This document shows, piece by piece, positions 7,484 through 54,738 of a stretch of 64,000 bases of DNA. The notes beneath the pieces were generated by a model. That model ran no database searches. It was given only the letters and a program-made list of their open reading frames with translations, and was not told where the DNA came from. This DNA comes from Spironucleus salmonicida (Eukaryota > Fornicata > Diplomonadida > Hexamitidae). A program made the position numbers and the translations under genes. The stretch covers positions 522,001 through 586,000 of the forward strand of contig CM035317.1 in NCBI GenBank assembly GCA_000497125.2, in the 5' to 3' direction. Position 1 is the first letter of the stretch, and each line of letters starts with the position of its first letter.

Positions 7484-10400
7484 TCATTTTTTATATTCTG
7501 ATGGAATCAAAAATTATTTATTGTCATCAGTTAGCTAATCGACGATTAAAGTAGTTCCATCGATAGAGACTGGGAAAAGATGTATTCCAAGCAAAAATCC
7601 AACTATGTCTCTGTTGTTAAGAATTTATGTATAAGTATCTTCCTCTCCTACCTTTTTATAGGTTATAGATGAATTAACTAAACAGGTATTTATCTATTCC
7701 AGTATTTGTAAAACATATAATTAATTTACTTTTTTAGCGGTAATCTCTTGAAAGTTTACACTGTTCGCGACCCACATGATATCCACACCCTAAATACATA
7801 GAGAGTTTGCTTTTTTATCATTGCAGAACTTACCTAGCTATGCAAATTTTGATTGATATGCTACTTTTAGCGCCGTAGTGTTTGCTATCTTATTCTTCAG
7901 CTCATATATTTCTAAAGGTATTACAGTAGCTAGAATAAGAGTATAAATATTCATCTAATTACTTACTTTTACTATATAGCAATTTTCAATACCTACTTTG
8001 TATACAATCAAGATACCAAAAATTTTATTAATATCTGTTAATTAAAGTCCCAACATATAAATCTATAAACATATTTCTTCAGACTACTAATCTATAATAG
8101 ATATTAATTTATTTTACTTTGTAATCTGCTAAATTTAAGTAAAAATATTTTCAGCAAACGGTTCAGATATATTTATCAGACAGTTTACGATAACGTTTAA
8201 ATTATTAAATTGGCGGGTATAGTTAACCAATTAAAAAATACCTAGAGCGAATACCTTCTTTGATATGCCCATAAACTCTTTTTTTACATTTGCTTATTTT
8301 TTTTAAGTTTGATCTTATTAGACAGCGTTATTATTGTTTCCTTCTCCCAATTATTTTTAAAATTATATTAAAAAAACTTAAAATACAATAACGCAAATTG
8401 TGGGGTGAAGACCTAGCACTGCTTACAACTTTTATTGCATACTAAATATTTATTTCCATGTTTTATCTCTTATTAGTTCATTATAACATTTTTTTATAAG
8501 AATCTCATTCTATTCCTGTGTGTGATAGCAATACTTTACGTCTCCTTCCTATCGTCGAGGATATAAGGATGTAAGTGGGCCAGTCTCGCGCAATGCCATT
8601 ATCAGCGGTATGGATAATGCTGAGGAGTAACTGGCTTTTGAAATCAATTTATCTTATTACTGTTCATTCCGTTATAATGATACATCAATTACTTGAGACA
8701 ATTAATAATAATTATTATCTTCGTTTTCCTTTAGTTAAGAAACTATTTTTTCCTCAAGAATCAATAAATCTTCTTTGATTATTTTCACGTATTCCTACGC
8801 TGGCATCATATAGTTTAATGCATTCTCTTACATTTTAATTTCATCTTAGTATATCTTTTTTTAATCACTTATTTCAGTTTCAACATTCGTCTTGTTGCAA
8901 TTCGCTAATACTAACTCATATCCAAGTTATTATGATATAACAGCTAAATCATCTAACGCGGTTTTCAAGTATGGTTTTTAAACCCCTGACTCGAGAGTGT
9001 ATTGAAATTTTCGTAACTCCCTTTATTTGGATAGTAAACTTGTTTTAGTATCTATACTAATAGATTTAGCGATATCGAGCATTTCCTCAGCTTCTTTTGA
9101 ACCTTACTCTAACAATTAAATTTAATAATTTGCATTTATTACTTTTTCTGCCATATGCTTTATTTATTATAAATGAATAATATTATCATACTTTGCTTAT
9201 AACATTTCAAACTCAGCTTACGCTTTTATGGCCGCTTTTTCAATATCATTATCTTTATTAGTATTATCTGTTAGTATTTATTACCAAGTATTTGCTTATT
9301 ATAACTATAGCTCTGCCTATTTAATATTAAACTATTTTATTGGTGAATCTAATTCATCTTTTGTTTATAGTAATGCTTTTTCTGCATTTTTAATCTCTTA
9401 TTTTGCATTTAACATTGCGTATTCTTACCGTTTTTCGTACTAAATAACTATATTTTTAGCATCTACATTTGGTTCGCTTGCGTTTGCTTTGGCTGTAGTT
9501 AGTTCTGCTTCCGCTTGGTTGACTTTTAATTTAGCTGTAGTTAGTTCTGCTTCCGCTTGGTTGACTTTTAATTTAGCTGTAGTTAGTTCTGCTTCCGCTT
9601 GGTTGACTTTTAATTTAGCTGTAGTTAGTTCTGCTTCCGCTTGGTTGACTTTTAATTTAGCTGTAGTTAGTTCTGCTTCCGCTTCCTTTACTTCAACCTT
9701 TAATTCCTTTACTTCAACCTTTAATTCCTTTACTTCAACCTTTAATTCCTTTACTTTTAATTTAGCTGTAGTTAGTTCTCCTTCAGCTTCGTCTACTTCG
9801 TTCTTCAGCTATTCTACTTTACCATCTGCTTTTACTACTTCGTTCTTCAGCTATTCTACTTTACCATCTGCTTTTACTACTTCGTTCTTCAGCTATTCTA
9901 CTTTACCATCTGCTTTTACTACTTCGTTCTTCAGCTATTCTACGTTACCATCTGCTTTTACTACTTCGTTCTTCAGCTATTCTACTTTACCATCTGCTTT
10001 TACTACTTCGTTCTTCAGCTATTCTACGTTACCATCTGCTTTTACTACTTCGTTCTTCAGCTATTCTACTTTACCATCTGCTTTTACTACTTCGTTCTTC
10101 AGCTATACTACTTTATCATTTGCTTGGGCTACATCATTATTCAGCTATTCTACTTTTGCTTTTACTTTATTTAAAACCTCCACCTCTTTCTGTGCTTAGT
10201 ATGCTTCTACTTTTTCCGTTCTTGCTTCATATTATGGACTCACCTAGTGGTGTAGACAAATCTGATTGAAGTTTTGCTGGTATTTATTTGTTACCTGGAA
10301 ACATGTTGTAATCCCGGTATCTTTTTATTTTTTAAACATTTCTTCCCCAGTGTGGTTTCCTGAATCCATCAACAGATTAATGCTTGAAACTTTCTCTCCA

Positions 10401-13400
10401 TCCACGTCACGGGTCTAAATTGATAGCATTTTTTTGTTAGAAAATGAATCTCTTATTGTATCCTCCACCCCGAATAGTGAAATTAGATAATCCGGCATCG
10501 GCGGAGATGTCTCAAAAAATAGATTCGAAATGCAAGTTTTATCAGTAATAGTTACGATCGCAAGTTTCTCATCCTTCTATAGTAGACCTAGTTGTTTTAG
10601 CTTTACATAGCAAACGCTGGCGTTCTGAATAGGGTCACCAACGTACATATCTATATCTGGCTTATCTAGGTTCTAGTATTTATCGAAAGATTTTTGTAAA
10701 AACATGAAAAATGCACCTTTAAAAAGCGACTAAAACTGTGCATACATTTCTATCAATGTAATATCATAATTATATTACATCTAAAATGGATTCACATAAA
10801 TCTCCAGATACTGTGAATAATTGTTAATTGATTTTAAAAGTTTATCTATACCAACTAGATGAGCAGGTTATTATCGACACAATGAGATAACTAAGAGTAT
10901 CATTGATGATATTTCTGAAATTTGTTGCTGTTTGAAGAAGCTCAATATTTGGCCAGTACTGCACAACGTGTTGAGTTAATGTTTATCTGATACTCCAATT
11001 AATTTAGATATAGCGTACATGAACTGCTAACTAGCCATAAAATGTAGCACAAATACCACATCTCGATTCAACGATGAGGATGAAGTAAGGTGTAAATTCT
11101 TGTTAAAATCTGCAATTGATGACGGTATTAATACTACCATGGTTTCTTTCTCATTTTGTACCAATTAGCTTGCTCCAACAAGTTCCTTATCCCTCATTAT
11201 AAATAAGGAATTATAAATTTAACTGTGCGAAGAAATCTAATTCAAAGGAATCTTCTTTTTATTAACTTTGAACTAAAATTACTTTGTAGAATTAAAAAAG
11301 TATGGATATTAACCTTTATTAATAATAATCTGTGGGCATATCAATGGGCACAGGAACTGTAGTTCTGCTGCCAAATCAGGTATCATTGTAAGGTAGAAAT
11401 CATTGATGCTCATATTTTTTACCTTATCTTTTACCTATTATATCATAGAATCGTCAGTTTAGGTTGTAATTCGCATATCCTTGTAGTATCGTTAGGTCAG
11501 ACAAGACGGGTGCATTTAGGAGGTGCCAAGAATATTAGATTGCCTATAGGGTTTTCCATCTCTACTATTTTCGGAAGTATACAAAAACTCATTCTATCTA
11601 ATGAAGTTTATAAGGGCTAGATCAGTTCCTGCTGCCAGCAGGTGAACTGTTTTCACTGAGATAAAGGGTATTTTTTCATAAACCTTCTAGTTAGGGAATT
11701 TTATATTAATATCTAACGTGTGTTTGAATAAATAGGTGTACTATTTATTTAGTTTATTTTTAACCTTAATTTGGCTAACTAACTCATCGGTTGCATCAGA
11801 TTGTTAATTCATAAAATAATAAATATTTCTCCAGAATATCGTTTCGATCCCACGCGGGTTGTACAGCATAAGGAGGAATTAGTATAGTTTCTATGTGAAT
11901 ACTTCCAACGTACTATATTTTCTAACATCCGATATCATTTCCTAGAACGACTCCTCTACTTTTTATGACTATCTAAGGTTGATAAAATTGGGAGACGAAA
12001 TGCCCATTAGATCAATAATTTTATAAGCTTTACAGTTCTTGAATAACTCAGATGGTATTAGTCTGAGAAAGTATCGTTCAATCTCTGCAGAATCACCACG
12101 GATGTACTCTACTTTTTACTCTGCTTCTTTCAAGTATTAAGGTTATTCAGCACGTTAAACTGTATCTATTTCCAAACCATTTTTACGAATTTCTAACCAG
12201 TCTAATAAGTATATTAGATCAATAGCTGCTATCTCTTTGATATTCAAAAGTACTTCATCAATGCTCGATTTTGCATTTTCCATAAATTTGACAACGAATA
12301 AGTTGGTTATTCTAACTAGCGCACGGGTGCACAATGCGTAGTTGGTTTTCTGCTAGGATAAACACTCATCGACTAAGATAGTAATTTACTTGTTTTTGCT
12401 AAATTCTTGAATTAAGTTTACATTTTTATTTGGTTTAATAAATCCATTTTTGTATTACTTAATTCTCCAAGATACATGCTCTATTTATAACTATACCTCA
12501 TTATTTTCTTTATTATTTTCAATTTATTTCTACAATTATTTTAACTCTTCTGATAAAGTGACTTAGATTTACTTCAATTGATCTGCTTGTTAATAATTAA
12601 AAAAATTAAACCCACCACTTAGCGAAAATTATTCAAAAGAAGATGTGCCCGTAAAATATGAAACAAATATATTTTTAAGTAATATTTATAATGTCAGCAT
12701 ATCATAATTTTTGATTAACTTGAAACACTCTGCTTTAACATAAGCCATCGTTTTAGAATATTCAATTCCATCTTTCAAATTACTACTAATAATATCTCCA
12801 AGCTTAGTTTTACGTTGATATTTACAAAAAAGTGTTTTTAGCTGTTAACCAATCTTGATAGAACTTCTGTCATATAAAGGTTGAGTGTCTAGCTTCTATT
12901 TCTCTTCTGTAAATCCAGTGTTAATCAATATGGGAATTTTTAGCCCCGAGAATAAGTTGAAGTAGAAGATGGTGTGCAGGGTGACTGTTTTACCGCTCCT
13001 AGAACTCTGGCTCATAACCGCATTTTCGATGGGGAAGAATGCTGAGAACACCGCAAAGTACTGCGCCTTGAACAGGTACGACACGTTGCACATTTGCTGG
13101 AAGATGAACTTGTTGGTATCGTTAAATTCTAATATTTTTAGTAAATGCACTGGGAGCTCAAAGAAGTTTTAAAAATTTGTCGACATAACAGCATCATTGT
13201 AAATTTATTGATTAGTGCTAAGAATAGATTTACCAGCCGACTAATAAATAGTAGTAGGATCTATAGCGTTTGAATATAACATTTGCTGATAAATAAGGTA
13301 AGCACTATATCCAAATATCATGGGCAGTAGATGCGCATATATTTTAAACTTATGTAATGCTATACCAATTATTTGCAGGATAGCCTATTTCTCGACAATG

Positions 13401-13996
13401 CTAAAGTTAGATGGTATTTTAAACTGGGGCTAAGTTAGTTTGTAGTCTTCGACTTAGTTATCTTTTTCATTCTAATCTTACTACTTACTTTTCTTTTTAC
13501 TCACAATACAATTAGGAAATAATTTAGAGTCAATTGCTGAATTTTTAGAAACTATAACAATCTCGTGATCTGATTTCATGCTTTATACTTATACCTTTGC
13601 TAGTTTTTGTATTTCTTCATCGCCTATTACTTAATATGATAAAACTGAAAATCCCATTTGGATAGATAGTGAGACCAGATTTAGCCAGTAGTCGGATACT
13701 GAGTTATTCTTTAAATCAAACGTCTTTTGAATAATGATTATCTAGATTTTCCGTTTGAACAGCAGTTCTTATTTATGCTGCCACATAAAGAGGTGTAGGA
13801 GGCTGAGGGTTTCAACAGTATCAATGGTTATCCTCAGGTAACGTACGGTATCGTCAATGTCGCTTATCTAAAATTCAGTTCCACTAAATTAAAAGACTAT
13901 TTCCGGCAAGAGGTCATTCATATCTTTGTCTAGAGAGGAAAAAGTGAGCTAGGTAGGTTTAGCTTCGGACTTGGTATTCTAGTCTTGATCGGTCAT
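7484..13996 (-). CDS. Giant coiled-coil protein, 2170 residues, with 14-residue tandem repeats
   Basis: From ATG at 13996 to TGA at 7484-7486 the frame is continuous for 2170 codons, with many in-frame TAA/TAG read as Gln. No TGA occurs inside, which chance cannot explain. Residues 1-1280 look globular or mixed and match no family I know. A P-loop-like string SQSSRSGKT near residue 330 lacks the first Walker A glycine. Residues about 1280-1500 are heptad-type repeats: seven or so copies of a 14-residue VKADGKVEQLKNEV unit, a short VKELKVE unit, and four to five copies of a KVNQAEAELTTAKL unit. The last 670 residues are again mixed, with coiled-coil-like stretches. A structural or cytoskeletal role, such as a flagellar or microtubule-associated scaffold, is inference. 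The start is the first ATG of the frame, 2-3 kb from any other gene. Confidence 0.85.
9490..10145 (-). repeat. In-frame 42-bp and 21-bp tandem repeats inside the coiled-coil gene
   Basis: Three adjacent arrays occur: about 4.5 copies of a 42-bp unit (about 9490-9680), about three copies of a 21-bp unit (about 9690-9760), and about seven copies of a second 42-bp unit (about 9800-10100). All periods are multiples of 21 bp, that is 7 residues, so copy-number change keeps both the reading frame and the coiled-coil heptad register. Confidence 0.9.
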
Positions 13997-14988
13997 TTAA
14001 GGAGTGGTAATAAAATTTATATCTAAATATGATTAATTAATTATAATATAATATATTGTATAGAATAATATTATGCTTATTCTGGTAGTGAATATGAAAA
14101 ATACCATTAACAAATAATTCAATCAAATTATGTCATAAATAATAGACATATATCATGTATAGTGTAAGAAAACATATATAATATCTTCTTTCATCAAGTA
14201 TCAGATAAACTTTTAGTTTTCATTTTATATGCTATGTCTGTGTTCATAACGTATTGTAATATGCTACAGTAACTAAACTGATTGATAATATTGTAACTGA
14301 AATATTGTTTACCAAATCATATAGTCTAATATCACTATTATGAAATATTTTCAAATATTAAATTGAAAATGAATTACGCCAGATAAGAAACACTATAAAA
14401 TATTTCCAACACAATGATTATATTGCTTACGCAATAATGAATAATAGACTATTATGATTATGCAAAACAAGAGCAGAATAACTAATGTTTAGTTATGGCA
14501 TCGCCCAAACATAAGGTAAAATAATTTTTCACTACTCTTAAAATTTCTCTGTATGTTTCAACATTTATATATATTCTCATTTACAGGATAAAAAGTATTT
14601 CCTGTTATCAAATAGTATTATTATTTAGATTATTCTAAAGTTTTTTGAGTAAATTTAGCTCTAACACCCTGAGATAAATTTAAGCATATTATTAAAGCAA
14701 TATTAGAGTGAAATAACTTCATAAATATTATTAAAATGATTATTTTTATTATATTAGATTTGTTTAGATTCAAATAGACTATAATTAGAAATATATTATG
14801 ATAAGTATGTGCAATATTATTTCTTATCTCATACTAACTTTGTTACTTATATAAAATATTATATTCAATATAGATTATATTAATATAAACATCATAACTT
14901 GTGTTTCTGGTGAATTTCTCGTTACTTTTCATTATAATGTGATCCGATATTCAGCGAACATTTACCAGTTATGATAATAAGCTAATTA

Positions 14989-24050: not shown

Positions 24051-24203
24051 TTTTCATACAATATAACCTCGGTGCCCGATTTGTGATTTACGTATTGCAA
24101 TAACACCATATACTACGAGATTTATATTTGGTGCGCTGGGCCGTTCAGGTATTTCGCACACCATGCTGCACCAATGCTATATTTTTTACGCCCCTTCCTT
24201 CAA

Positions 24204-25556
24204 ATGTCGGAAAAAGACTCCATAACCGTGGAGGCCCAGGAGTTATCGCCCAAGACCAAGAAGTTAGCGTGGTGGGTGTTCCTACTATTTGGCGTGACAG
24301 TTCTCCTTCCTTTCAACTGCTTTATCGTACCAGTCGACTACTGGTTCAACCAGTTCCCCTCCACCCTGCTCACTGCTATTTCCGTCACCAACAACATCTT
24401 CAACAGTATCGTGACCTTCACGATGATGAAATTTTCATACACCCTCACTGTCAGGTTCCGCTTGCTCCTGGCCCTATCCATTTGGCTTGTTGTTTTACTC
24501 ATCGTTCCGTTTGCGCAGTTGTTCTCGCACAACCAGACCACCAGGATGACGATAATTCTGATCTGCGTGGCCTTCGCGGGCTGTGCGAACGGCCTCTTCT
24601 TCCCCACCGCCATCGGGGTTGCGGCCTCCCTGGACGTGAGCTTCATCGCCGCCTTCAATGCTGGGTCGGGCATCGCCGGTATAGTTGCCCAGGTGCTCAA
24701 GGTGATCACGAAGCCCATCATCCCCTTCAACAGCAAGGCCCCCACCTTCGACTCCGTGCTGTACTACACCACCGTGGCCTACTACATCATCGCCGCTATC
24801 TTCGTGCTCGTGACCTACTTCGCCTACTTCTGGCTCGTCAAGAACTACGGCGCTGACAAGATCGAGTTCGACGCCGCCGACCGCCAGAAGTACTTCACGC
24901 GCGACAAGAGCGCCGCCAAGGAGGTCGCCGCCCCCGGCACCACCTTCTTCGACGCGGTCAAGAACCTGTGGATGCCCGGCGTCTCGCTCTTCCTCATCTT
25001 CTTCGTCACCCTCACCCTGTTCCCCGCCATTACTATGGAGATCCTGTGCTACTCCATGTTCAAGACCAACGAGTCCGGCAAGTACGGCGACTGGTGGTCC
25101 ATCATCATGTTCTCCTGGTTCATGGTCGGCGACTGGGTCGGCCGGCAGTTCCCCTCCTGGAAGTGGGGGCTCAGCATCTGGAACGTCAAGACGCTCTTCA
25201 TCGCCGCCATCGTCAGGCTCGCCTTCATCGCGCTCTTCATCATCCAGATCGTGCCCTACTACCACTGGCCTGCCGGTACCACCTCGCCCGCTGCATCTGG
25301 CACCTCCCCCGACGGCCTTCCCCTCGTCCACAACGACCTGGTGGCCTGGATCGTGATGATCCTCTTCGCGGTGTCCAACGGCTGGTTCATGTGCGCCATC
25401 TTCTGCAAGTACGGCAGCATCATGAAGCCCGAGACCAACGGCACGCACGCCGCCAACTTCATGACCCTCTGCCTCAACATGGGCCTCCTCTTCGGCAGCT
25501 CACTCGGCACCGTCGTGTCCATCATCATCGGGAATGCCAAGAACAGCCTTGCATGA
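24204..25556 (+). CDS. Equilibrative nucleoside transporter (ENT/SLC29 family)
   Basis: A 450-residue polytopic protein. The first membrane segment carries the ENT signature LLPFNCFIVPVDYWF near residues 34-48. A hydrophilic loop follows the sixth segment. The C-terminal part has NGWFMCAIFCKYGSIMKP and then NFMTLCLNMGLLFGSSLGT, matching the last two ENT segments. ENT proteins move nucleosides and nucleobases, which diplomonads must salvage because they lack de novo purine synthesis. I chose ATG 24204 (MSEKDSITVEAQ); an in-frame ATG 30 bases upstream at 24174 is less likely. Codons are strongly G/C-ending and no TAR codon occurs. It stops with TGA. Its neighbours are decayed genes on both sides. 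Confidence 0.9.
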   Translation: MSEKDSITVEAQELSPKTKKLAWWVFLLFGVTVLLPFNCFIVPVDYWFNQFPSTLLTAISVTNNIFNSIVTFTMMKFSYTLTVRFRLLLALSIWLVVLLIVPFAQLFSHNQTTRMTIILICVAFAGCANGLFFPTAIGVAASLDVSFIAAFNAGSGIAGIVAQVLKVITKPIIPFNSKAPTFDSVLYYTTVAYYIIAAIFVLVTYFAYFWLVKNYGADKIEFDAADRQKYFTRDKSAAKEVAAPGTTFFDAVKNLWMPGVSLFLIFFVTLTLFPAITMEILCYSMFKTNESGKYGDWWSIIMFSWFMVGDWVGRQFPSWKWGLSIWNVKTLFIAAIVRLAFIALFIIQIVPYYHWPAGTTSPAASGTSPDGLPLVHNDLVAWIVMILFAVSNGWFMCAIFCKYGSIMKPETNGTHAANFMTLCLNMGLLFGSSLGTVVSIIIGNAKNSLA

Positions 25557-31257: not shown

Positions 31258-32604
31258 ATGGTTTCGTTCGGACTCCTATTTGCAATTTAGTCCTTAACAG
31301 CCGAGACTCTCGGCTTTACCATTGCAAACTTTTCTTCTGACATCATCAAACTTTACTATATGGCTATTGGTACTTCAGCTAATTTTGCAGCCGCTGATGT
31401 TGCAGTTCAAACTTTACTACCCTATCTATCTATCGCCTCCCTTGTAGGCTTCCTCATTGCTTCTCTCACCTTCGCTCCTATTGTAAGCTGGTTAGGCTAC
31501 AAGAAGACCGGCTTGGTAGGTGCTGCTGGATCTGTCATCTTCAATATTCTGCTTTGCATTCCTTTCAATGTCTACTACTGGCTGGTTATGAGGCTTTTTG
31601 CCGGCTTCTTTGTCGTATTATTTTAACAACCCAGCATCATCATCGTGGGTGAGCACGCTGAGGCCAGCAAGAGAGGTATACTCGGTGTTATGTTCCAATT
31701 TAACGTCACCCTTGGTATATTGGTTGCTTCCTTAGTCTTACTTGCCATCCGTACTTATCAAGATACCTATAATGCTTGGTGGGTCAACTTTATTGTTACC
31801 TTCATATGGCCTCTCATGGGATTTGTCTTGTTATTCTTCGTTCCCGACGTCAAGCCCAGAGAGGAGAAGGAAATCTCCCCCATGCTCCTGTTCAAGGAGA
31901 AGAAGTACCTCAAGGTCCTCATCCTCTCTGTCATGCTCGGCCTCAACCAGCAGTGCACCGGTATCAACGCCGTTATCGTCTATTCCACTGAGACCTTCAA
32001 GGATACCTTCAAGAATGCAGATGGCACTACCCATTCCCTGTCTTCCGTCTTCGGTTCCATCATTATCAACGGTGTCAACTTTGTGGCTACCCTCGGCGCC
32101 CTCGCCTTCATCGAGAAGCTCGGCCGCAAGATCCTTCTCTTCGGCGGTGTCGGTGTCTGTTTCGCTGCACAGGTTGCTCTCATGATCAACTATATCCTCG
32201 CAAAACCCAATACTGCCCTTCTCATTACAGCTTCTGTTATATTCATCATTGGATTCGAAGTTGGTCCCGGTCCCATCTTCTTCGTCTTCGCCTCCGAGCT
32301 CTTCCCCGTCGAGGCCAAGTCCCTCCTATCCTCAATCCTGCTCAGCTTCAACTACATCCCCAACATCTTTGTCGTCGTTCTCTTCCCAATTCTTACCAAC
32401 GCTGCCGCATGGTCTCCCTTCGTTACCTATTTGATCGTCATGGGTCTTACAACTGCTGTATTGCTCTTTACCACCCCTGAAACGAAGGGCAAGACCCAGG
32501 AGGAAATCCAGATGATCCTTACCGGCTCTGCACCAGCTGCTAGTAGCGAAGCCGAGAAAGGCTCCGAGGTTAGGTTTGGTTCTGGTGTTATGACTGCTGA
32601 GTGA
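31258..32604 (+). CDS. Sugar transporter, major facilitator superfamily (GLUT/HXT type)
   Basis: 448 residues from ATG 31258 to TGA. TAG at codon 11 and TAA at 31624 are read as Gln; without them the first third would be lost. Family motifs are clear: LNQQCTGINAVIVYST near residue 229 (helix 7 QQxSGINA motif), GPGPIFFVFASELFP near 336 (helix 10), and PETKGKTQEEI near 407 after helix 12. The PESPRWL motif of helix 6 is replaced by PDVKPREEKE. It would take up hexoses across the plasma membrane. Codons are C-rich but less biased than in the ENT gene. The short N-terminus is typical of protist members. Confidence 0.92.
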
Positions 32605-33066: not shown

Positions 33067-33822
33067 TCAGATTCCGTCAATGCCGCCCGCATCCAACCCC
33101 TCAACTTCCTCTTCGCATTCTCCCCGAAATCGACAGCAGTATCCGTACTGCTCCAGAGTCTGCACCATGAAAACGCTCCGCTGGCGCCGCAAATCCAAAA
33201 TTATCTGGTCAGTTTCCGCTCCTTTTTGGCTCATTTTCGCTCTGCAGACGATGAAAACGCCAGTCCGGCCCACCCCCGCAGAGCAGTGCACGAGAATTCG
33301 CTAATTTGCAGTTTCTCGTAGAATTTAAAGGAACGAAAAATCATTTTCTGGGGTTTTTAGGTCCGGGAACGACGCCAGCGCGTAGTGCGTCACCGGCGCG
33401 CCGTCGACGAGCAGTTTCGTCACTGTCAGGTCGTTTTTGACCGTTTTTTCTGTCGTTTCGACGGTCAAGTTTCTGCCGTTCTCGCTAAGCACCGCAGCCG
33501 CTGCTGGCAAGTAGGCGTCGCACTTGCCCGCCTCGACCTCGCAGAGCTGCACGATTGACGCGATTTCGCGGTCCCGCACGAGCGCGAAAAAGCGGAAAAA
33601 CTCGACCGGGAGCGGCGCCTGCGACGCGATTTGGAAGGTCCCGCCCAGCCGGATTTCGTTTGCGTTCATGTAGGGCTCCACCACCGTCGAAAGCGATGGT
33701 GTGACGTTGATCTGGCGGTTCCGCGACGCGTTTTCGGCATTCCAGGCGTGCGTCGCGACAGGTGTCGAGGGCAGAACGTCCGCGAACGTGCGGTCCTCTA
33801 GCGCGTCGTAACGCTGCTGCAT
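33067..33822 (-). CDS. Classical protein tyrosine phosphatase
   Basis: 251 residues from ATG 33822 to TGA 33067-33069, with TAA (about residue 166) and TAG read as Gln. The catalytic P-loop is complete, VHCSAGVGRTG with the nucleophilic Cys near residue 180. Other classical PTP motifs are present: YMNANEIRL (YINAN-type), ASQAPLPVEFFRF (QGPL-type), HYALASFPDL as the WPD loop, and LRRQRSVFMVQTLEQYGY as the Q-loop with both conserved Gln. The WPD tryptophan is replaced by Phe, but the general-acid Asp is kept. The domain is compact, near the minimal PTP size. It would dephosphorylate phosphotyrosine in cytosolic signalling. An upstream in-frame ATG at 33876 lies inside the tRNA gene, so 33822 is preferred. 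Confidence 0.9.
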
Positions 33823-33862: not shown

Positions 33863-33893
<31 letters not shown>

Positions 33894-37491: not shown

Positions 37492-38181
37492 ATGAACGCA
37501 GGTTTCGACCAAAACCTGACTGTCTTCTCCCCCGAAGGTAAGCTATACCAGATCGAATACGCTTAAAATGCTGTTTCTTCGTCCCCGCTTTCGTCGCTGG
37601 CACTCCGTTCCCCAGCTCAGCTCACATTCTTTGCCCAGTTGCCTACTTTTGATCTGCTCCAAAATGCAAGAAACACCACTTCTTTCTGGCCCGTAACGAG
37701 GCAGATTTCAGTCCTCGCTTGCGGTAGGGCTTCTGACTCCAGGGCCCTCGTCCAGAGGGTCCGCTCAGAGTGCGCGGAGTTCAAGAAAAAATTTGGAACT
37801 GATCCAAGCGTTTAGGAAATATCGGAGCGCGTCGCCGATGTGACCCAGCTCTATTCGCAGGAGGCTTGGTTGAGGCCCTACGGATGCGTGCTGTTTTTCG
37901 GCTGTTCCGTGACTTTGAAAATATTTAGAGTTGACGCTAGTGGAGCATGTGTTTGCGTTAACTGTGGTGCAGCTGGGGTCAAGGGCGGTGAGTTTTTGGA
38001 ATATTTTTGCTCGTAGCAGCAAGGAGATGATGGCGTTAAATTTGGGCTCGGAATGTACCAAAAATACGTTAATGCAGGGCTTATTGGTGATGATTTGGAG
38101 GTTTGGGTCGGAAAAGATGGCGAGTGGAAGAAAATCAGAGTTGAAGAAGTAGATGATATGTTAGAAAGCAATAAGGTGTGA
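37492..38181 (+). CDS. 20S proteasome alpha subunit (alpha-1 / PSMA6-like)
   Basis: 229 residues from ATG 37492 to TGA 38179-38181. TAA at codon 25 and two TAG codons are read as Gln. The N-terminus GFDQNLTVFSPEGKLYQIEYA is the alpha-subunit signature that forms the gate region. The spacing from the start and the AGFD lead-in resemble PSMA6 best. Further support comes from CGRASDSRALVQRVRSECAEF and ERVADVTQLYSQEAWLRPYG, matching helices H1 and H2 and the loop after them. The segment after the signature is divergent, and the C-terminal acidic helix is short. It is a structural subunit of the proteasome outer ring with no active-site Thr. Moderately GC-rich in an AT-rich setting. Confidence 0.93.
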
Positions 38182-40634: not shown

Positions 40635-40889
40635 TGTTAGTTCAATAATATATATGAGAAATCAATCAAATATTTTATACTCAATGAAGCTTTAATTACT
40701 TTTACCTTGTTTTTAAAATATAATTTTATTAAATAAATTCTTTTGACATTTTCTCTATTATATAAATATAATATATTTATATTAGTAATTGTAGCTATTT
40801 CTAGCAAAGATTATTAATAATATTCTATATAATATTTCTAATATTTTAATTTTTAAAATTCTATTTTAAAAACCACTCCCTTGCTCAAG
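40366..40889. other. GC-rich 3' flank, then AT-rich leader of the P2 gene
   Basis: Bases 40366-40634 are GC-rich, belong to arm A and show no convincing gene. At about 40635 the sequence switches sharply to AT-rich DNA. It contains pyrimidine/AT stretches just before the P2 start and is probably the P2 promoter. Confidence 0.6.
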
Positions 40890-42230: not shown

Positions 42231-42241
42231 ATCTCCTTAAA

Positions 42242-46071: not shown

Positions 46072-48042
46072 CCAGAAAACGACTCCCTCGGGTTATAGCC
46101 CTACCCCGGGGTGCTCGCACCTGCCGCAGCAGTATCTTGTCCGCGCTCTTTATTCGTGTGCCCCGGTAGTTGCTGGAGCGAGATGCGGCACCCCTACACC
46201 GATGCTGCCGCCTTTTAACCGCCGGCCAGCATGCAGCGTCACGCCACGTGCGCGCATCTCAGCATCCGATTCCTCTGCTGTCCGGGAGCGGTACCGCCAG
46301 CTAGGGCATACACCCTCCCGCGCACGAAGCCAACTCACACTCACTCTGCCGTCGTGCCGTCCTTGAAGGAACCCGCAAGGGAGCTGTCCTCCTTCTTCGC
46401 GCCCATGTGGTTGAACACGTTGGACACGAACAGCTCCGAACGCAGGTCGCTGGGGCTCGGCTGGATCTGGCGTCCCGTGGACGGGGCGTTCTTGAACTCC
46501 AGTTCCACTTCGATCTCGGTCGCGGGCTCCTGCTGCTCCAGCTCGGTCGTCTGCAATAGTTCCGTGGGCGGCGTGCTTACCCTCCTGGCGGCCCTGAGAA
46601 CCACTATCGCCACGAAAATGCCTCCGTTAACCAGCTTTAGCAGCCCAGTCTGCGTGAGGACCTCCATGGGGTTCGCCCCCGGAGCTGAGAAGGCGAGCGC
46701 AATGCCCAGCCCGAGGTCGGCAACGAAGGTGATGACACTGAGGACCATGTGCAGGTTGTACATTCTCATGCCCTGCATGGCTCCCATGGCAATGCGGTAC
46801 GGTCCGTGCAGACCTGCTGCGAAAACCACCACGCTGGCCTTCGCAGTCCACTTGGTGTTCGAGTTCAGCTCCACCAGCGCCTCGTCCGCGAAGCTGAAGA
46901 TGAAGTTCGCGAACGCGGGGGCCAGCAGGTACAGGCCGAAGGCGATGACGAGAATGAACACCGTGTTGGCCGGGGCTACGATTCTGAAATAGTCCCGGGC
47001 CTTGTCGGGCTGGCTGATCAGGTACTGGAAGGCGATCTCGCCCAGGGAGCCGGAGACCGCATGCACCAGGTTGGCGAGTGCGATGCCGCTTAGGGCCGAC
47101 AGCTGGAAGTTCCCTGCGGCTAAGGTGCCCTTGAGGGCTGGGTACAGGTACATCACGAAGGTGAAGAAGGAGACGTCGAAGTTCGAGAAGAGATCAGTTG
47201 CGACGTTCAGCAGGATAACGAGGACCAGTTTGATGCGGAACGGCTGCAGCAGCGAGAGGTGGAGGCGCAGCACCGAGCTCTTGGTAAACAGGCCGATCAG
47301 GAGCAGCCCGTGCACGGCCACGCCCGGAAGCGCCTGGATGAAAATGTAGGCGGAGAGCTCCAGCCTTCTCCCGCTCACCACGCTAAAGAGGTAGGCCAGC
47401 AGGATGAGGAGAATCTTCGCGATCTGCACGCCCAGCTGGAGGACGTAGAACTGGAGGCTCTTCCCCATGTAGATGCTGATCTGGAGCACGTCCGCGATCG
47501 TCATCTCCCCGAACAGAGACGTGACGACAAACAGGGGCCGGACGGCCAGAATCTCGGGCGAGAGGAACGGGAGGCGCACCACGAGGAGCACGATGGACAG
47601 GATGACCAGCACGACTAACTTCGCGAGCAGGGTGTAGATGTAGTGGATCTTGGCCGTTTCTATCCGCGCCTCGGCGAAGAACTGGACCAGGAACCGGAAG
47701 TTGGCCGTGGAGAACGCCTCGCTGGTCTGCTGCAGGACGGCCTTCAAGAGCAGGTGTAGGGCGACTAGCTCCGTGGTGCGTTGTACCCCGAACGCCGCCA
47801 GAGTGAGGTAGAGCTGCACCAGCTCCGACAGCGGGAGGAGGATGTGGTACAGCAGGTGCTGCGGCTGGAAGCTGAGCAGGAGGTTCTTCAAGGGGATGTG
47901 CAAGGCCTCTACGCCCGCCTGGAAGGAGTACCCGGTATTGGCTACTGAGGACCGCGACGAGGGCATTTTCCTTTTCTGATACCAGTGTATATATATGATT
48001 TGGGCACTAATCAAAATGGGAAATAAACTACGGACAGCCGCG
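46072..48042 (-). repeat. Inverted-repeat arm A' (partner A at 38664-40634)
   Basis: Reverse-complement copy of 38664-40634, same length and nearly identical. It lies in the 2.4-kb gap between arms B and B', so the two inverted repeats are interleaved. Confidence 0.95.
46341..47966 (-). CDS. MATE/MOP-superfamily-like transporter (copy A')
   Basis: 541 residues from ATG 47966 to TGA, same protein as at 38740-40365 apart from three residue differences (Ala for Ser in ELVALH, Asn for Lys in LLNVATD, Ser for Gly in AKASVV). The N-terminal leader can be extended in frame to 48065, but the extension leaves the repeat and is unlikely to be real. Divergent from the CLN3-like copy at 48730, about 760 bases apart, so the two could share a promoter region that the left pair lacks. 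Confidence 0.8.
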   Translation of the reverse strand: MPSSRSSVANTGYSFQAGVEALHIPLKNLLLSFQPQHLLYHILLPLSELVQLYLTLAAFGVQRTTELVALHLLLKAVLQQTSEAFSTANFRFLVQFFAEARIETAKIHYIYTLLAKLVVLVILSIVLLVVRLPFLSPEILAVRPLFVVTSLFGEMTIADVLQISIYMGKSLQFYVLQLGVQIAKILLILLAYLFSVVSGRRLELSAYIFIQALPGVAVHGLLLIGLFTKSSVLRLHLSLLQPFRIKLVLVILLNVATDLFSNFDVSFFTFVMYLYPALKGTLAAGNFQLSALSGIALANLVHAVSGSLGEIAFQYLISQPDKARDYFRIVAPANTVFILVIAFGLYLLAPAFANFIFSFADEALVELNSNTKWTAKASVVVFAAGLHGPYRIAMGAMQGMRMYNLHMVLSVITFVADLGLGIALAFSAPGANPMEVLTQTGLLKLVNGGIFVAIVVLRAARRVSTPPTELLQTTELEQQEPATEIEVELEFKNAPSTGRQIQPSPSDLRSELFVSNVFNHMGAKKEDSSLAGSFKDGTTAE

Positions 48043-48729
48043 TAACAATATGGTAAGGCAGACATCTGAAATCAGTGTGATATTAGGAATATTTATTTAT
48101 ATAGAGTTTGCATTACAGAAATTTATAATACAGATTAGTCAATGATATGTTCTAAAGCTGGGAGCCAGTCGTTCTATGAACGCGTTATATGGTGAATTTA
48201 GTGGATTATTCAAATACCTGAACTCAATATAGTCTATGCCTACAAATGTAGAGTAGTAGGTACGTTCATTCATCTTATGTTATTGAAATTAGTTTCTTTT
48301 AATAAATAATCCTATATTATATATTATATTATGTCTCAAAAATATATATAGGGTAATATAATTAATGATTTTGAAAATATACCCGCATTTCTGGTAAATG
48401 ATCATTTCAAGATATAGTAATACCCAATTGGCGGTACGCTACTATCTTTAAATTGATTTTCTGCTGTCACTGATTCTGCCAGTATAAAGTTTGAAATACT
48501 GAAAAGATACAATATGATTTTTACAGTCTATAAATTATAGCTTTTAGCATATATCCTAGCGATTACTATAAATATTTCTATCTCATTGTATTAATTTATA
48601 TTAATTTCACATTCAAACATTAATATATAAGGAATTAAAAAAAATAATACAACTAAGTATAGATTTAAAAATCAACTAAACATCTAAGCCATCATATAAT
48701 GTACTATTTTACTTCTCCCACTCCATCAA

Positions 48730-49950
48730 ATGGATAAGGATAAAACTGAAGCTAAACCTAAAGTAGTCCATGAACATATTCTAACGCGAATTGCTTTCAT
48801 AATAATCGGAACAATGAATAATTTTGGTTATGTGGTTGGTATTTCAGCTGCATTAGACCTAGTAGGAAAATCGTTTCCTAAGGGAATCTTATTATTTTGC
48901 GATATATTCCCTGCATTCTTCATTTCGTGCATCTATCCTATGATACATTAGTATTTAAATATTAAGTATATTGCCCCCATACTGTCTATTATCGGTAGCA
49001 TAGGATATATTCTAGCAGGGTTATCAACTACATTTGGAACGTGGGCGGGCCTAGTGGGAGTCATATTCTTCTCAATTTAGTCATCTGGCGAAGGACCTTT
49101 CCTAGCATACTCAGGTAGCTTCCTACCTGACTGCTCGGCCATGTACTGTGTGGGAACTGGCCTAGCTGGTCTTTTGGGATCGGGATTTTATGCGTTGCTC
49201 ACTTCCGTGCTGCATATCAGGTTCGAGATAATTCTGTACTCGTTTGCTTTCCTACCATTGGTTCTAAACCTTGCACTTTGGATGACTACTCTCAAACCCT
49301 GCATAAAGGCGCAGCTGGACAATGAGGAGGTTGAATCAGGCGCTGTTACTAACAATACATCAATATCCTCTGCGGTCGCGCTGGATGATAACACTGCTGA
49401 GGTAGAGGCTCTAGAAGACCATTCCGTAAAATCGAAGCTTCAAACGGTGGCCCGAAACTGGATGGCATATCTCTCGCTGCTGCTCATTTTCATTTGCCAG
49501 TACTCGATAACGGCCGGAATCAACCCCACAATGATCTTCCACGGGGACGAGAAGATCTACTACAAGTTCGCCGCGTTCTTCCTGCAAGGGGGCGTGCTGA
49601 TCGCCCGCTCCACTACCACGCTCTTCTCGGTGCCCTACTGGACCCTCCCGCTGTTCTCGCTCTCGGGGTGGGGGCTGTTTGTGCTGTTCGCGCTCCAATC
49701 GGTATACCGCTTTATCTACTCCATATGGGTGATGCTCATTTTCGTCCCTTTCATCGGGATTTGCTCTGGCTTCTGCTACTCAAACACGATTTGGTGGATG
49801 CAGAAGCGCAACCCCCTCAAGGGGGAGCGGAGCTTCGCACTCAGCTTCTCCGGCATGGTGACCAACTTCGGCATCTGCATCGCGACCGCAGTGGGGATCG
49901 GAATGGAGCTCCTGCTCAAGGCGCAGCACCCGGCGGACTGGGCTGAGTGA
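48730..49950 (+). CDS. CLN3/battenin-like membrane protein (copy B')
   Basis: 406 residues from ATG 48730 to TGA, with the same two TAG codons as Gln. Identical to the copy at 43949-45169 except Ala for Val in the GTGLAGLLG segment. That TAG codons are retained at the same positions in both copies shows they are sense codons rather than recent nonsense mutations. Confidence 0.85.
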
Positions 49951-51375
49951 ATCTTTTGTGGGCAAGACCGCTAGCGCCATCCAGGCCAAGACCCATGGGC
50001 AGGCAGCCGTAGCAGGGCAGGGATTCAGGGGAGAGGCATCTGCGGAGCGGGTGCGCGCTGCTCGCCACTTCTCGCGAAGGGCCGCGGTACTGGGCGCCCG
50101 TATACCACGCCCGCCGGATCCCGCATGCCGGCTTCCCGGGGGCGTTGCCGCAGCACCAAATTGCCCGGATACTGCAGCTGCGAACACAAATACTAACCCA
50201 CAGGAGCGGGCCTGCCCCAGAAGCCCCAGCCGCGCGAGCAGCCCTCGCTGTCGTCCATGGCGTAGATACCTCGCGCTGCCAGACTGCATGTGGATAGGAA
50301 TTTCGATATCAGAGCATGCGCGGCGGCCCGATGCACGCCATTGTGGGTGGTGGCTACCGCATTTTACCAGCAAGGGCTTGGCTCGCCCCAAGATGCACGG
50401 TTCGCTGCGGTGTGTGGAGCTACCCAGCCAGGCCGCTTGCGGGGAAGGGCGCTATGTAAGAACTCCTGCCGGCGGGCGGGCGGCACTGAAGCATGTCATA
50501 CCCCGCTTCCGCTGCTCCGGCCACCAACGCCGTACTCACGTCCCGGCAGAGGCTGCGTCGGTAGAGTCCGGTACGCGCCACTCATGTTTCCAAGTTTATA
50601 GCGGAGGTCGGACACTCGCCGCGGATGAAGCACAACCCTTCCGGCAGCGGCCATATGGCACAGGATCTCCAGCCGTGGCGTGGAGACGGATCTCGGCCGA
50701 GTGGGGGCCAGGGAGGATGGCCAACCGAGTGGAGGGTAAATTTCCACCAGCCTCAAGCGGGGCGGGGGACTGCCGTCAGTGACGACTTGCAAGTATCAGC
50801 ATACTCCACGCCGCCGCAAAGTCAGGCAGGCAGGCCGGCCGGACGAGAAGCAGCGGTGCGCACAGCCCAGAGACGGCTAGAGGATAGGTACCTGTGGCGC
50901 CATGGGCATCGCTACCAGGGCAGTGCAGGGCGGCACCAGCCCATCACTCTTAGAAAACCCGACTCCATCTTCAGGCAATTGCGATTATGCGAATAATATA
51001 ATGCTATACTCCCCTTATCTTCGCACGAAAATGCCCCTGGTCTACCAGAGCAAGGTGGTGCAGCGGACTGCACCGCTGCAGTCCGGTGCTAGCGGGCCGG
51101 CTGCGGCGCCGTTCCGCGCAGAACCTAGCCGGGGCGGGAGAGCTTGCCTCTGCAACTTCCCCTTTCCGAGATATACGCCCCTGGCCAGCGGCCATACTCG
51201 GGCGCTCGCTGCCGGAAAGGCGCAGAGCCCACGGCGGTGGAGCCTCCTGCAGAGCCGGGTGCCCCTCTGCGCAGGCTGGCGCCAGAGGTGCTGTGGCCAG
51301 CCGGCTCCTCGGGAGGCACTCCGAGGAATCTACGGCGAGTGCAGCCCTTCGCCGCTCGTGCCAACCCAACTCCTC
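49951..51375. other. GC-rich stretch without a convincing gene (copy B')
   Basis: Counterpart of 42524-43948. Differences from the B copy include substitutions near 49960, 50040 and 50160. They do not fall in any obvious codon pattern, which argues against strong protein constraint. Confidence 0.55.
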
Positions 51376-51657
51376 TCACTCGGCGCCCATGATCCGGAGC
51401 AGCTCGCTCAGCAGCGCCCCCTTCCTGCAGGGCTGCCGCTTCTCTGCGGCACCGTCCACCACGAAGCCGCGCATGTCGTCGCAGCGGTTGGGCTTGTTGT
51501 CCTGCTGCCGCTTCAGGTAGTAGTACTTGAACTTCACCTGCGCCTGCGACAGCGCCGGGAAGTACGCGCCCTGGATGTCCCGCCACTGCAGCCCGTGGGC
51601 CTGCACCGCGTACATGAGCGTCGCCTTCTCGCTGGCCTCCCATTTGTGGTTCCGCAT
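51376..51657 (-). CDS. Small SANT/Myb-domain protein (copy B')
   Basis: 93 residues from ATG 51657 to TGA, same as the 42242-42523 copy except Ala for Thr in GAYFP. Beyond about 51668 the upstream flank is unrelated to that of the other copy, so the two copies must use different promoters. Confidence 0.78.
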   Translation of the reverse strand: MRNHKWEASEKATLMYAVQAHGLQWRDIQGAYFPALSQAQVKFKYYYLKRQQDNKPNRCDDMRGFVVDGAAEKRQPCRKGALLSELLRIMGAE

Positions 51658-51668
51658 TTTCAGGAGAT

Positions 51669-52287
51669 TAAACTTGGCAGTTTTATTAATATAAATAGAA
51701 ATATTTGAGTGATTTGTTGTTGTTTATAATTTATTTGGACTCTATTGAATCAAGTATTATAACATTTATTTGAAATATATGAATATAAATCATAAATTAT
51801 TCGATACGTATAAAATTTTATGGCAAAATCTGAAAATATAATCTCATTATGTAATATTTTATCATACAATAGTTTCGTATAATATATAAAACATATTCAC
51901 ATAGAAAAAATTACTTTTTAATATATGAAATATGCAGGAAAATTTTGTTATTAGAAATAATAATTGCACAAAATTATATCATATATTTGTAAATAATTTA
52001 TTTTTAGTTTACCAAATTCATTCAATTTGGCTAGAAAAAATGATTAATTAATGTATGAGTAAATTGGCAAATTATCTTAGTAAAGTTTCATTTTTATTAT
52101 ATACTTGCAGTTAGGTAGTAGATTGTTATGATAGAAGGCCATTTTGTAAATCAAGCTCATTAAAAACACAATAGTATGTAATATTTTAAAAATAAAAATT
52201 AAAAAAATATGACTAAATAAACATGTTATATAAAAATATTTGTAAAATAAATGTTAAAGTATACAAATGAATATAAAATCTCAATCA
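51669..52287. other. AT-rich intergenic region
   Basis: 619 bases between the SANT copy and the V-ATPase gene. No gene is seen. Confidence 0.6.
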
Positions 52288-52818
52288 TCATGATCTATTA
52301 GGGCAAGTAACATCTTTGAAGCTTAAAATCAAACCAATAATAAGACCATACAGAGCTAAGGCTTCACCAAAAACTAGAATCAAAAGCATTACAACAAATA
52401 ATTTGCTGTTCCTTGCAGAAGCACGAGCACCAGCATTTCCAGCAATACCAATAGCTATACCGGCTGATAAAGCGGCTACACCAGTACAAATACCAGCAGC
52501 CAAATGGGCAAAGGAAATAAACAGAGGCACCTGAGTAGAATTTTAATATTTACCAATAGAAGTATTGATAACAATGGCTATGATAAGACCATAGATACCA
52601 AGAACACCTGCCATGATAACTGGGAGAGTATTTTTCATAGCCTGTGCAGGCTTCATTACACCCGCAGCAACGACACCCTTACCAGCCTTAGCTGTACCAA
52701 AGGCAGATCCTAATCCGGAGAACGAAACGCCAATAGCCATGCCAAGATATGAGTAGAATGAAGATGTATAGGGACATGCCTCAATTATGCGTTTAGGGTC
52801 ATAAGCTAAATTAGACAT
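52288..52818 (-). CDS. V-type ATPase proteolipid subunit c
   Basis: 176 residues from ATG 52818 to TGA 52288-52290. A TAA at codon 93 (SIGKY-Gln-NSTQ) must be Gln: it joins the two halves of a standard four-helix subunit c. Helix 2 contains [16 protein letters not shown], and helix 4 contains [20 protein letters not shown] with the essential proton-carrying Glu at about residue 152. The length and the paired GIYGLI/ALYGLI motifs fit eukaryotic Vma3/ATP6V0C. It forms the membrane rotor that pumps protons into acidic vacuoles, the likely site of the CLN3-like proteins as well. This is the cleanest proof of the genetic code in the window. Confidence 0.96.
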
Positions 52819-53006: not shown

Positions 53007-54722
53007 CCGTGCCTGCCGATCTGAGTGAAGCGCTCCGTCACTTCTTCTTGCTGTGCCTGGCGCGCCGGACGGTCTTCACGACCTGCACGATGCCCATCAC
53101 GGTCATGACCACGCATGCCGCGATGAAGGCGCCGCCGACCAGGAAGGTGGCGAGGTGCTGGCCGGTGTAGTCGAAGTTGCTGGTGCGGCGCGTGACGACG
53201 ATGAGCCCCGACGGCATGAAGAAGTAGGCGGGGTCCTCGCTGTCGAACATCACGTTCACGTACACGTTGCCCTTGCTCTCGGCGAGCATCTGCTTGTTGG
53301 CGTAGCAGTAGCCGCGCTGTGTCGGTGCCAGGGCGTCGCAGTCGATGCAGTACTGGTCGTTCCGGCGGGAGAGCTGGATGGACTGCTGCACGTAGAACTT
53401 CGGCAGGGAGAAGTTCTCGTCGGTCTCCAGGTTCATGAACTGGAAGGTGAGCATCGTCTGCACGACGGCGTCCTCGGGCAGCACCGAGCCGCAGACGTCC
53501 AGGTTGCCGCCCGTGATGAGCTGCACGCACAGCTGGCTGCCGCCGCGCTGCATGACGGCGGACTTCCAGCAGGATGGGACCTCGTAGAGGCGCACCTCCT
53601 CGCCGAAGACGAAGGCGTTGCCGTTGTAGAAGAGCGTGTCGTACACGAAGGCCGCCTGCGTCTGCGTCGCCCGCTGGTGGAAGCGCGCGCACGCCTCCTG
53701 CTCGGCCATCGAGCCCTGCGTGCAGGTGAAGCGGCGCACCTTGGTGTGGGCCTCGTAGCTTCTCGAGACGACGGTGGTCTGCAGGCTCAGCACCTCGCCG
53801 TCCAGGACGCCCGTGAGCCGCAGCACGTACGAGGTGAAGGTCTGCTTGTTGTAGAGGTCGAGCAGCTTCGTGTCGAAGTCGGGGTGGTTCTCGACGCGGG
53901 TGAGGAAGGCGCCGTCCCAGAGCCCCAGCACGACGTAGTTGGGGTGGTAGAAGGAAAGATCTGCGCCGAGGCTGCTGAGGTCCAGACCGCGCAGGCTGAC
54001 GGTCCCCACCGTGTGCGTGAAGGTGACCGCGAGGACGCCCTGCTGCGCCACGAACGAGATCGTCGCCGTCGGGAGCGCCTCCTGCCGGAAGCCCTGCAGC
54101 ACCACCTCGTCCACGGTGATGGTGAACACCTTGGCAGTTTTAGTAGCGTACGAGCTCGCGAAGTCCGCATGCTTCATGGCGATCACGGTGCCCATGAGGT
54201 TCAGGTTCACCTGCGTGAGCTCGTTCAGCACCAGCGTGGTGTCTGTGGCATCCTTTATCGTCTCGATCTGCTGCGAGCACAGCCCCGTCGGGGTCACGGT
54301 GAGGTTCAGCGACGTCGCGTTCACCTCCAGCGTGGAGTCCACCGCGTAGCACTGGTCCAGCGCGGACTTCTGCTCGTCGAACACGAAGATGTGCGTCTGC
54401 GTGATCTCGGAGTAGGAGAACAGCGTCAGCACCGCGAAGGTCTCCGTGTCGAAGGTGGCCGCCAGCGTGAACACGATCTCGGTGGTGTTCGCGTACGAGA
54501 AGTCCGTTAGCACCCTGGAGAGGATGGGGACCTTGTCGTTCTTCAGCATCAGCTGCGCCTCGATGCCGCGGGGGAGCGCGAAGCACGCCGGGTCGAGCGT
54601 CGGGCGCAGCGCCACCGTGATCTGGTTGATGTTGCGGTTGTAGGTCATCGCGGTGTCGTCCGTGTAGCAGTTCTCGCGCACGGTCTGGTACGCGTTGAAC
54701 GTCTGGTTTATGTTCACCGCCA
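53007..54722 (-). repeat. Inverted-repeat arm C (partner C' at 60382-62098)
   Basis: About 1.72 kb, nearly identical to the reverse complement of 60382-62098. The similarity covers almost exactly the coding region: it begins about six codons into the gene and ends about 30 bases after its stop. Confidence 0.93.
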
Positions 54723-54738
54723 ACGCTAGCAGAACCAT
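53038..54738 (-). CDS. Type I membrane protein of unknown family (copy C)
   Basis: 566 residues from ATG 54738 to TGA. The N-terminus MVLLALAVNINQTFNAYQ gives a very short hydrophobic stretch. The long ectodomain is Thr/Ser/Val-rich with several N-glycosylation sequons (for example NTT, NAT, NLT) and about a dozen Cys. The C-terminus has a membrane segment (FLVGGAFIAACVVMTVMGIV) and a basic tail KTVRRARHSKKK. It is therefore an extracellular or luminal protein anchored once. GC-rich codons, no TAR. I recognise no family. The copy at 60369-62066 differs at about five positions (Asp/Asn, Glu/Asp, Val/Ala, Val/Ala, Ile/Val) and at the first residues. Confidence 0.85.
   Translation of the reverse strand: MVLLALAVNINQTFNAYQTVRENCYTDDTAMTYNRNINQITVALRPTLDPACFALPRGIEAQLMLKNDKVPILSRVLTDFSYANTTEIVFTLAATFDTETFAVLTLFSYSEITQTHIFVFDEQKSALDQCYAVDSTLEVNATSLNLTVTPTGLCSQQIETIKDATDTTLVLNELTQVNLNLMGTVIAMKHADFASSYATKTAKVFTITVDEVVLQGFRQEALPTATISFVAQQGVLAVTFTHTVGTVSLRGLDLSSLGADLSFYHPNYVVLGLWDGAFLTRVENHPDFDTKLLDLYNKQTFTSYVLRLTGVLDGEVLSLQTTVVSRSYEAHTKVRRFTCTQGSMAEQEACARFHQRATQTQAAFVYDTLFYNGNAFVFGEEVRLYEVPSCWKSAVMQRGGSQLCVQLITGGNLDVCGSVLPEDAVVQTMLTFQFMNLETDENFSLPKFYVQQSIQLSRRNDQYCIDCDALAPTQRGYCYANKQMLAESKGNVYVNVMFDSEDPAYFFMPSGLIVVTRRTSNFDYTGQHLATFLVGGAFIAACVVMTVMGIVQVVKTVRRARHSKKK

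Follow-up and report, generated by a model that had tools for sequence, protein, structure and literature searches.

The nuclear DNA of Spironucleus salmonicida almost certainly employs the hexamitid genetic code, in which UAA and UAG specify glutamine and UGA is the only terminator. The original prediction, made from a stretch of 64,000 nucleotides of this genome (hereafter, the window), assigned glutamine to TAA and TAG as in the hexamitid code (NCBI table 6), and this assignment is borne out by the residues found in homologue columns, by the presence of glutamine-like tRNAs with UUA and CUA anticodons and by the use of both codons as sense codons. The finding is correct and has been known since 1996-97: the hexamitid code goes back to Keeling and Doolittle (1996, 1997, as cited in PMC1805757), was in print for this species by 2007, is found in PMC1805757, PMC2874811 and PMC5304391, and is stated in Spironucleus papers of 2007, 2010 and 2014. 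When the standard code is applied to this genome, many genes look broken.

In-frame TAA and TAG codons in the window

In the window, genes with recognizable Pfam domains cross in-frame TAA or TAG codons (collectively, TAR codons) and then reach TGA. The frames considered here are the following.

52288..52818, minus strand: gene for V-ATPase subunit c (proteolipid); 176 codons before the TGA; two stretches matching Pfam ATP-synt_C, 99 bits
52543..52545 (plus-strand numbering, gene on the minus strand): the single in-frame TAA of the V-ATPase c gene; codon 92, in the variable loop between the two repeats
37492..38181, plus strand: 20S proteasome alpha subunit; TAA at 37564, TAG at 37813 and TAG at 38014 in frame; TGA end; Pfam Proteasome and Proteasome_A_N
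31258..32604, plus strand: sugar transporter; TAG at 31288 and TAA at 31624 in frame; TGA end; Pfam Sugar_tr, 197.6 bits; GLUT matches
33067..33822, minus strand: protein tyrosine phosphatase; TAA at 33325 and TAG at 33301; TGA end; Pfam Y_phosphatase, 101.7 bits
43949..45385, minus strand (open frame, the likely start being further in): CLN3-like gene, copy A; TAG at open-frame residues 146 and 189; Pfam CLN3, 200.8 bits
48514..49950, plus strand: CLN3-like gene, copy B; the same TAG codons (open-frame residues 146 and 189); Pfam CLN3, 204.6 bits
27594..29981, minus strand: kelch-repeat protein; 38 in-frame TAR codons, no inner TGA; TGA end; Pfam kelch families
7484..14107, minus strand: coiled-coil open frame; 2207 codons, including 88 TAA and 54 TAG; no inner TGA
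24174..25556, plus strand: nucleoside transporter; zero TAR codons; GC3 0.87; TGA end; Pfam Nucleoside_tran, 77.6 bits

The V-ATPase subunit c gene has 3335 homologues at E<=0.001, and a paralogue is present among the S. salmonicida records. The TAA predicted inside this frame is indeed there, although it is codon 92 and not codon 93, and the glutamate that was said to be retained is the Glu of the GEAL motif in the second repeat (residue 152), which is kept in all 18 rows of the alignment (the protein itself and the 17 relatives listed). At the column of codon 92, the 17 relatives listed have Q (one relative), K, A, N, V, S, G, E, M, P or a gap; because the column is variable, this site shows that TAA is sense, not which amino acid it encodes. 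The probability that a frame of this length is free of TGA by chance is 0.04, so that the case for this gene rests on the Pfam match rather than on the open frame.

When the same stretches are read in the remaining five frames, TGA makes up 1.2-2.2% of the codons, which serves as the chance baseline. The corresponding probability of a TGA-free frame is 5e-20 for the coiled-coil frame of 2207 codons, in which the match to Tropomyosin is weak and below the Pfam cut-off, and 7e-8 for the kelch-repeat gene. By itself, an open frame counts for little in the short genes and for much in the coiled-coil frame.

The sites reported for the sugar transporter, phosphatase, proteasome alpha and CLN3 genes were likewise located in accordance with the original prediction. 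The best PDB matches of the proteasome gene are to alpha type-6, and the two TAR codons of the phosphatase (33325 and 33301) lie immediately upstream of the catalytic motif HCSAGVGRTG. It is also true that the same TAG codons occur in both CLN3-like genes, but these cannot be taken as independent evidence: comparison of the window with itself shows that the two copies belong to a single inverted duplication (42230-45746 versus 48153-51669, 99.66% identical over 3517 bases) and are therefore to be counted once. By our reading, the open frames of CLN3 and the proteasome subunit begin before the likely start codons, and the TAR codons in these upstream portions are not countable as coding.

Where the proteasome, sugar transporter and phosphatase genes are aligned to their best-scoring PDB matches, Gln is opposite none of six TAR sites, and a seventh site, proteasome residue 175, falls outside the alignment. 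In its second domain, the best PDB chain for the phosphatase has a Gln opposite one TAG, adjoining a gap. For CLN3, a sequence search found no solved structure. The comparable TAR sites of the window are mostly at variable positions and, taken alone, show sense use rather than glutamine.

Sense use of TAA and TAG across the genome and the ends of genes

The genome searched consists of 14.47 Mb in 37 contigs, and the profile search that was employed reads through stop codons and counts them. The protein-kinase family yielded 129 match rows with 814 TAA, 391 TAG and no TGA; since a gene can be split over several rows and some copies are duplicates, the rows do not represent 129 independent genes. 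Only 3 of the 129 lack all three codons. The ATP-synt_C family (8 rows, 2 TAA, 1 TAG) and the eRF1_1 family (2 rows, 9 TAA, 2 TAG) are likewise devoid of TGA, and the one exception is the Rdx family, with a single row that contains one TGA and one TAG. A code of the Iotanema type, where only UAG is reassigned and TAA would remain as a stop partner, is at odds with the 814 TAA codons inside the kinase matches.

The frames could, in principle, be pseudogenes, 194 of which are listed in the published assembly of S. salmonicida (nine chromosomes, 42 scaffolds, 14.7 Mbp; PMC9509377), or else the TAR codons could be removed from the transcripts by splicing or editing. Decay would yield TGA as well, whereas the kinase matches contain 1205 TAR codons against zero TGA; with only four introns reported for the genome (PMC9509377), splicing cannot account for hundreds of TAR codons; and the existence of cognate tRNAs for TAA and TAG also speaks against such readings. 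Explanations of this kind have, in our judgment, a negligible probability, and we treat the TAR codons as sense codons.

There is some circularity in the claim that all complete genes end in TGA, given that TGA was used to delimit the frames. The claim gains support from four genes with a Pfam profile near the end, those matching ATP-synt_C, Sugar_tr, Nucleoside_tran and CLN3, in which the alignment extends to within 4 positions of the end of the profile, and a TGA follows within 30 codons with no TAR codon in between. These four C-termini, together with the 129 kinase rows free of TGA, agree with UGA as the only terminator in the hexamitid code, the selenoprotein W gene discussed below being the exception.

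Glutamine as the amino acid encoded by TAA and TAG

For the identification of the amino acid, eRF1, one SNF1-like kinase and V-ATPase c were aligned to their homologues, with the stop codons masked as X, and every one of the 29 TAR columns was scored. The set for eRF1 included 117 of the 120 listed homologues (the protein itself, the Hexamita sequence and one 760-residue plant protein were left out), that for the kinase all 120 of the 120 listed, and that for V-ATPase c 114 of the 120 listed (left out were the protein itself, two Hexamita and two Spironucleus records, and one 297-residue plant protein).

Over the 20 TAA columns, the summed log-odds are +14.2 bits for Gln, with Asn next at -9.0, and over the 9 TAG columns, +6.5 bits for Gln, with Lys next at -5.3. 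When all 29 columns are combined, Gln stands at +20.7, followed by Lys at -16.4 and Glu at -16.6, with Tyr outside the best five. Thus, for TAA and TAG each on its own, Gln is the sole residue with a positive sum. Control codons behave as they should for GAR (Glu +86.8), AAR (Lys +108.8) and CAR (Gln +7.0, with Leu next at -10.0), although a wrong residue comes out on top for 5 of the 60 sense codons seen (CAG, TCG, ACG, AGG and CGA, each with 1-6 columns), which indicates that small samples are noisy.

The individual columns are heterogeneous. Opposite three TAG sites, namely eRF1 residue 396 (117 homologues) and kinase residues 106 and 107 (120 homologues), the frequency of Gln is 1.00, while none of the 20 TAA columns is an invariant Gln, so that the support for Gln is weaker for TAA. 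A residue other than Gln is the commonest at 25 of the 29 TAR columns, and some strongly conserved columns disagree with Gln, such as those of kinase TAG 175 (Leu, 0.93) and eRF1 TAA 130 (Glu, 0.95). One might accordingly entertain the possibility that TAA and TAG are sense codons for another amino acid, such as Glu or Tyr, as in some ciliate codes, or that they differ from each other in meaning; many TAR columns do contain more Glu, Lys or Asp than Gln, the mean frequencies over the TAA columns being 0.141 for Glu, 0.129 for Asp, 0.121 for Lys and 0.113 for Gln. Nevertheless, the summed log-odds are positive for Gln alone with each of the two codons, and the tRNAs with UUA and CUA anticodons resemble each other and tRNA-Gln most closely, and we therefore consider a meaning other than glutamine to be highly improbable. 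The comparison of glutamine columns suggested in the original prediction thus favours Gln for TAA and TAG separately, as judged from eRF1, the kinase and V-ATPase c, with the proteasome subunit compared via PDB alignments only.

tRNAs for the reassigned codons

The same prediction called for glutamine tRNAs with TTA and CTA anticodons elsewhere in the genome, and at least two genes of the former kind and at least one of the latter were detected with ARAGORN, their glutamine identity being assigned by similarity only.

C6:1035570-1035642: tRNA gene with anticodon TTA
C6:1478314-1478386: tRNA gene with anticodon TTA
near C6:674739 (locus C6:674680-674767): tRNA gene with anticodon CTA

One tRNA-Gln gene with anticodon TTG and one with anticodon CTG were found as well. 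The search was a non-exhaustive one: of 903 first-look candidates, 63 were scored, and these yielded 62 matches, 50 of which were taken further. Under the standard table, ARAGORN labels the TTA and CTA tRNAs ‘Stop' and ‘Pyl'. The CUA tRNA of S. salmonicida has already been named in PMC5304391.

In a comparison of 40 tRNA sequences, some of which differ only at the ends, the CTA tRNA is nearest to the Gln-CTG tRNA (0.80), followed by the two TTA tRNAs (0.79 and 0.77). Apart from its own second copy, each TTA tRNA is nearest to the CTA tRNA and then to both Gln tRNAs (0.70 for one copy and 0.68 for the other), with the best non-Gln tRNA at 0.64. The margin is narrow given that the Gln-TTG tRNA is equally near to tRNA-Val(GAC) (0.68) and to one of the TTA copies (0.68), and that the D-arm of these tRNAs is common to the tRNA-Val of the same genome. 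On this similarity, the three Gln-like tRNAs, two with anticodon UUA and one with CUA, would decode UAA and UAG and would presumably be charged with glutamine.

Both types of former-stop tRNAs have G37, as opposed to A37 in the normal tRNA-Gln genes. By eye, the CUA tRNA contains a U-U mismatch at the second pair of the anticodon stem, and we considered a 4-base-pair anticodon stem for this tRNA, by analogy with the tRNA-Trp with a 4-base-pair stem mentioned in PMC13092985. RNA folding yielded no cloverleaf for the CUA tRNA, nor did it for the two normal tRNA-Gln sequences.

Pattern searches for UUA and CUA tRNAs had a mixed outcome. Two patterns spanning the region from the anticodon to the T-loop matched 24 and 12 sites, including three tRNA-Lys and three tRNA-Arg genes, and were abandoned; ARAGORN, run on 21 of the 24 loci and then on all loci retrieved up to that point, recognized no UUA or CUA tRNA among them. 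These patterns missed the true genes because A37 was demanded, whereas the true genes have G37. Among the 34 sites that matched a D-arm pattern, two were the true UUA genes, and six other promising stretches proved not to be tRNAs. The 13 sites matched by a third pattern comprise the Gln-TTG gene, both TTA genes, 8 tRNA-Val genes, the CTA gene and the Gln-CTG gene.

Altered release factor eRF1

The release factor was identified at the following position.

L040:1450-2763: eRF1; 437 residues, 10 TAR codons

The first eRF1_1 match, on L039, was set aside because, by our reading, this frame is Pelota/Dom34-like. The protein encoded on L040 is 100% identical to an S. salmonicida record, with the lineage Hexamitinae, which places the organism among the hexamitin diplomonads. 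Against the 117 homologues, this eRF1 differs at 29 of the 136 columns that are at least 97% conserved, and 21 of these 29 are in the first 139 residues, the codon-reading part of the protein. The motif TASNIKS is replaced by QADCIKS in S. salmonicida and by QAACIKS in Hexamita inflata, and the Leu of the Y-L-C motif is replaced by Ser (Y-S-C) in both, so that the core of the change is common to the two organisms. The stop-codon reading motifs are therefore altered relative to the homologues and to solved eRF1 alike, in line with the hexamitid code. These changes (QADCIKS and Y-S-C) may be the cause of the UGA-only reading, in that the factor would have lost the recognition of UAA and UAG while keeping that of UGA.

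Finding of the S. barkhanus eRF1 is mentioned in PMC2874811, and a supplementary figure of PMC5304391 aligns many eRF1 sequences. That supplementary alignment aside, the motif change is not described in the accessible portions of PMC5304391, PMC9161772, PMC6879139 and PMC2874811, and we make no claim that it is unpublished.

We tentatively suggest, while deeming it somewhat less than probable, that hexamitids have followed a route of their own to termination at UGA only. This route would involve the replacement of the near-invariant NIKS Asn by Cys (QADCIKS or QAACIKS) and of the Y-L-C Leu by Ser, and the UUA and CUA tRNAs, with their common G37 and identity of 0.77-0.79, could derive from one duplicated tRNA-Gln. 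With 10 TAR codons in its gene, eRF1 depends for its own synthesis on its competitor tRNAs.

UGA as a probable selenocysteine codon

The single Rdx match with an internal TGA corresponds to a selenoprotein gene.

C4:620992-621216, minus strand: selenoprotein W gene (SelT/SelW/SelH family); 76 codons; NCBIfam CXXU_selWTH, 40.6 bits (cut-off 34.2)

In this gene, a TGA is found at the U of the CxxU motif, a TAG two codons earlier is used as sense, and the frame ends with a TGA stop; the genome also contains a tRNA-Sec gene (49.9 bits versus the gathering score of 47). In at least one gene, then, TGA very likely has a second reading as selenocysteine, and the meaning of UGA would be context-dependent. 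The statement that TGA is the only stop holds insofar as TGA is the only terminator seen, with the qualification that it very likely has this second meaning in the selenoprotein W gene. All three stops could instead be sense in context, with TGA ambiguous beyond selenocysteine, as in some ciliates, and the TGA inside the selenoprotein W gene would speak for such a code; here, however, the inner TGA is precisely at the U of the CxxU motif, a tRNA-Sec gene is present and none of the 129 kinase rows contains TGA. Such broader ambiguity is, accordingly, very unlikely, and we retain UGA as the terminator that very likely doubles as a selenocysteine codon.

A selenoprotein W with UGA was reported in this species in 2010, in a section entitled ‘A triple function of UGA' (PMC2874811), where the Spironucleus UGA is considered a terminator, a selenocysteine codon and a polyadenylation signal; that account is matched here by the UGA of the selenoprotein W gene and by the tRNA-Sec gene. 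The same paper reports no canonical SECIS in its S. barkhanus data, searched with ERPIN, whereas in the present sequence a SECIS-like hairpin, as yet unproven, is located just past the stop. The hairpin, with a GUGA-12 nt-AA-UGA arrangement, lies 17 bases past the selenoprotein W stop, and no Rfam family matched it at E<=1. A neighbouring stretch on the same contig (C4:613425-613622, L120), 75% identical to the selenoprotein W gene, is apparently degraded and was not used as evidence. It contains no TGA in the matched part but has retained a similar 3' region, where the loose hairpin pattern is matched as well, so that the SECIS-like hairpin is to be regarded as a lead only.

Relationship to other genetic codes

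The ciliates with UAR codons for glutamine, such as Tetrahymena and Paramecium, have undergone the same reassignment, with the same kind of tRNA change, but independently in origin. The QADCIKS and Y-S-C changes are not known from the eRF1 of ciliates. The code found here is itself identical to the hexamitid diplomonad code (NCBI table 6), with which it has in common UAA and UAG for glutamine, UGA as the sole terminator and tRNA-Gln species for the former stops, and the organism belongs to the same group and is very likely the same species as one in which that code was described.

The fornicate Iotanema spirale (PMC5304391) resembles S. salmonicida in reading UAG as glutamine but differs in that its UAA is a stop, whereas here UAA is sense, too. 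In the eRF1 of Iotanema, Thr32 of the GTS motif is changed (PMC5304391), whereas this Thr is kept in S. salmonicida; the Gly that precedes it is replaced by Ser in S. salmonicida and is unchanged in Hexamita. The mechanistic interest of the system lies in which of the eRF1 changes abolish the recognition of UAA and UAG, and in how UGA as the sole stop is distinguished from UGA for selenocysteine.

Codon use and other features of the window

Four genes of the window (24174-25556, 38740-40365, 46341-48065 and 53038-54738) have GC3 of 0.87-0.96, contain no TAR codons and use almost only CAG for Gln. The frames rich in TAR codons are AT-rich, with GC3 of 0.31 for the coiled-coil frame and 0.43 for the kelch gene. 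As described in PMC1805757, GC content is heterogeneous in this way, UAA was the commonest Gln codon in the data of that study, and 3' ends are short.

The large inverted duplication that includes the CLN3-like genes also holds, by our own reading, transporter-like genes; besides the pair given above, it comprises 38664-40637 versus 46069-48042 (99.34% identical). The region 348-3746 encodes a Cys-rich repeat protein with an apparent membrane-spanning C-terminus and 32 in-frame TAR codons, without a Pfam match. A long tandem array with repeats ∼85-90% alike occupies 17420-23123; its open frames correspond to a low-complexity protein without TAR codons, and the array may be non-coding. Two tRNA-Ala genes (TGC and AGC) are located on the minus strand at 33836-33908 and 37324-37396, the second of which overlaps with the proteasome open frame in its upstream portion.
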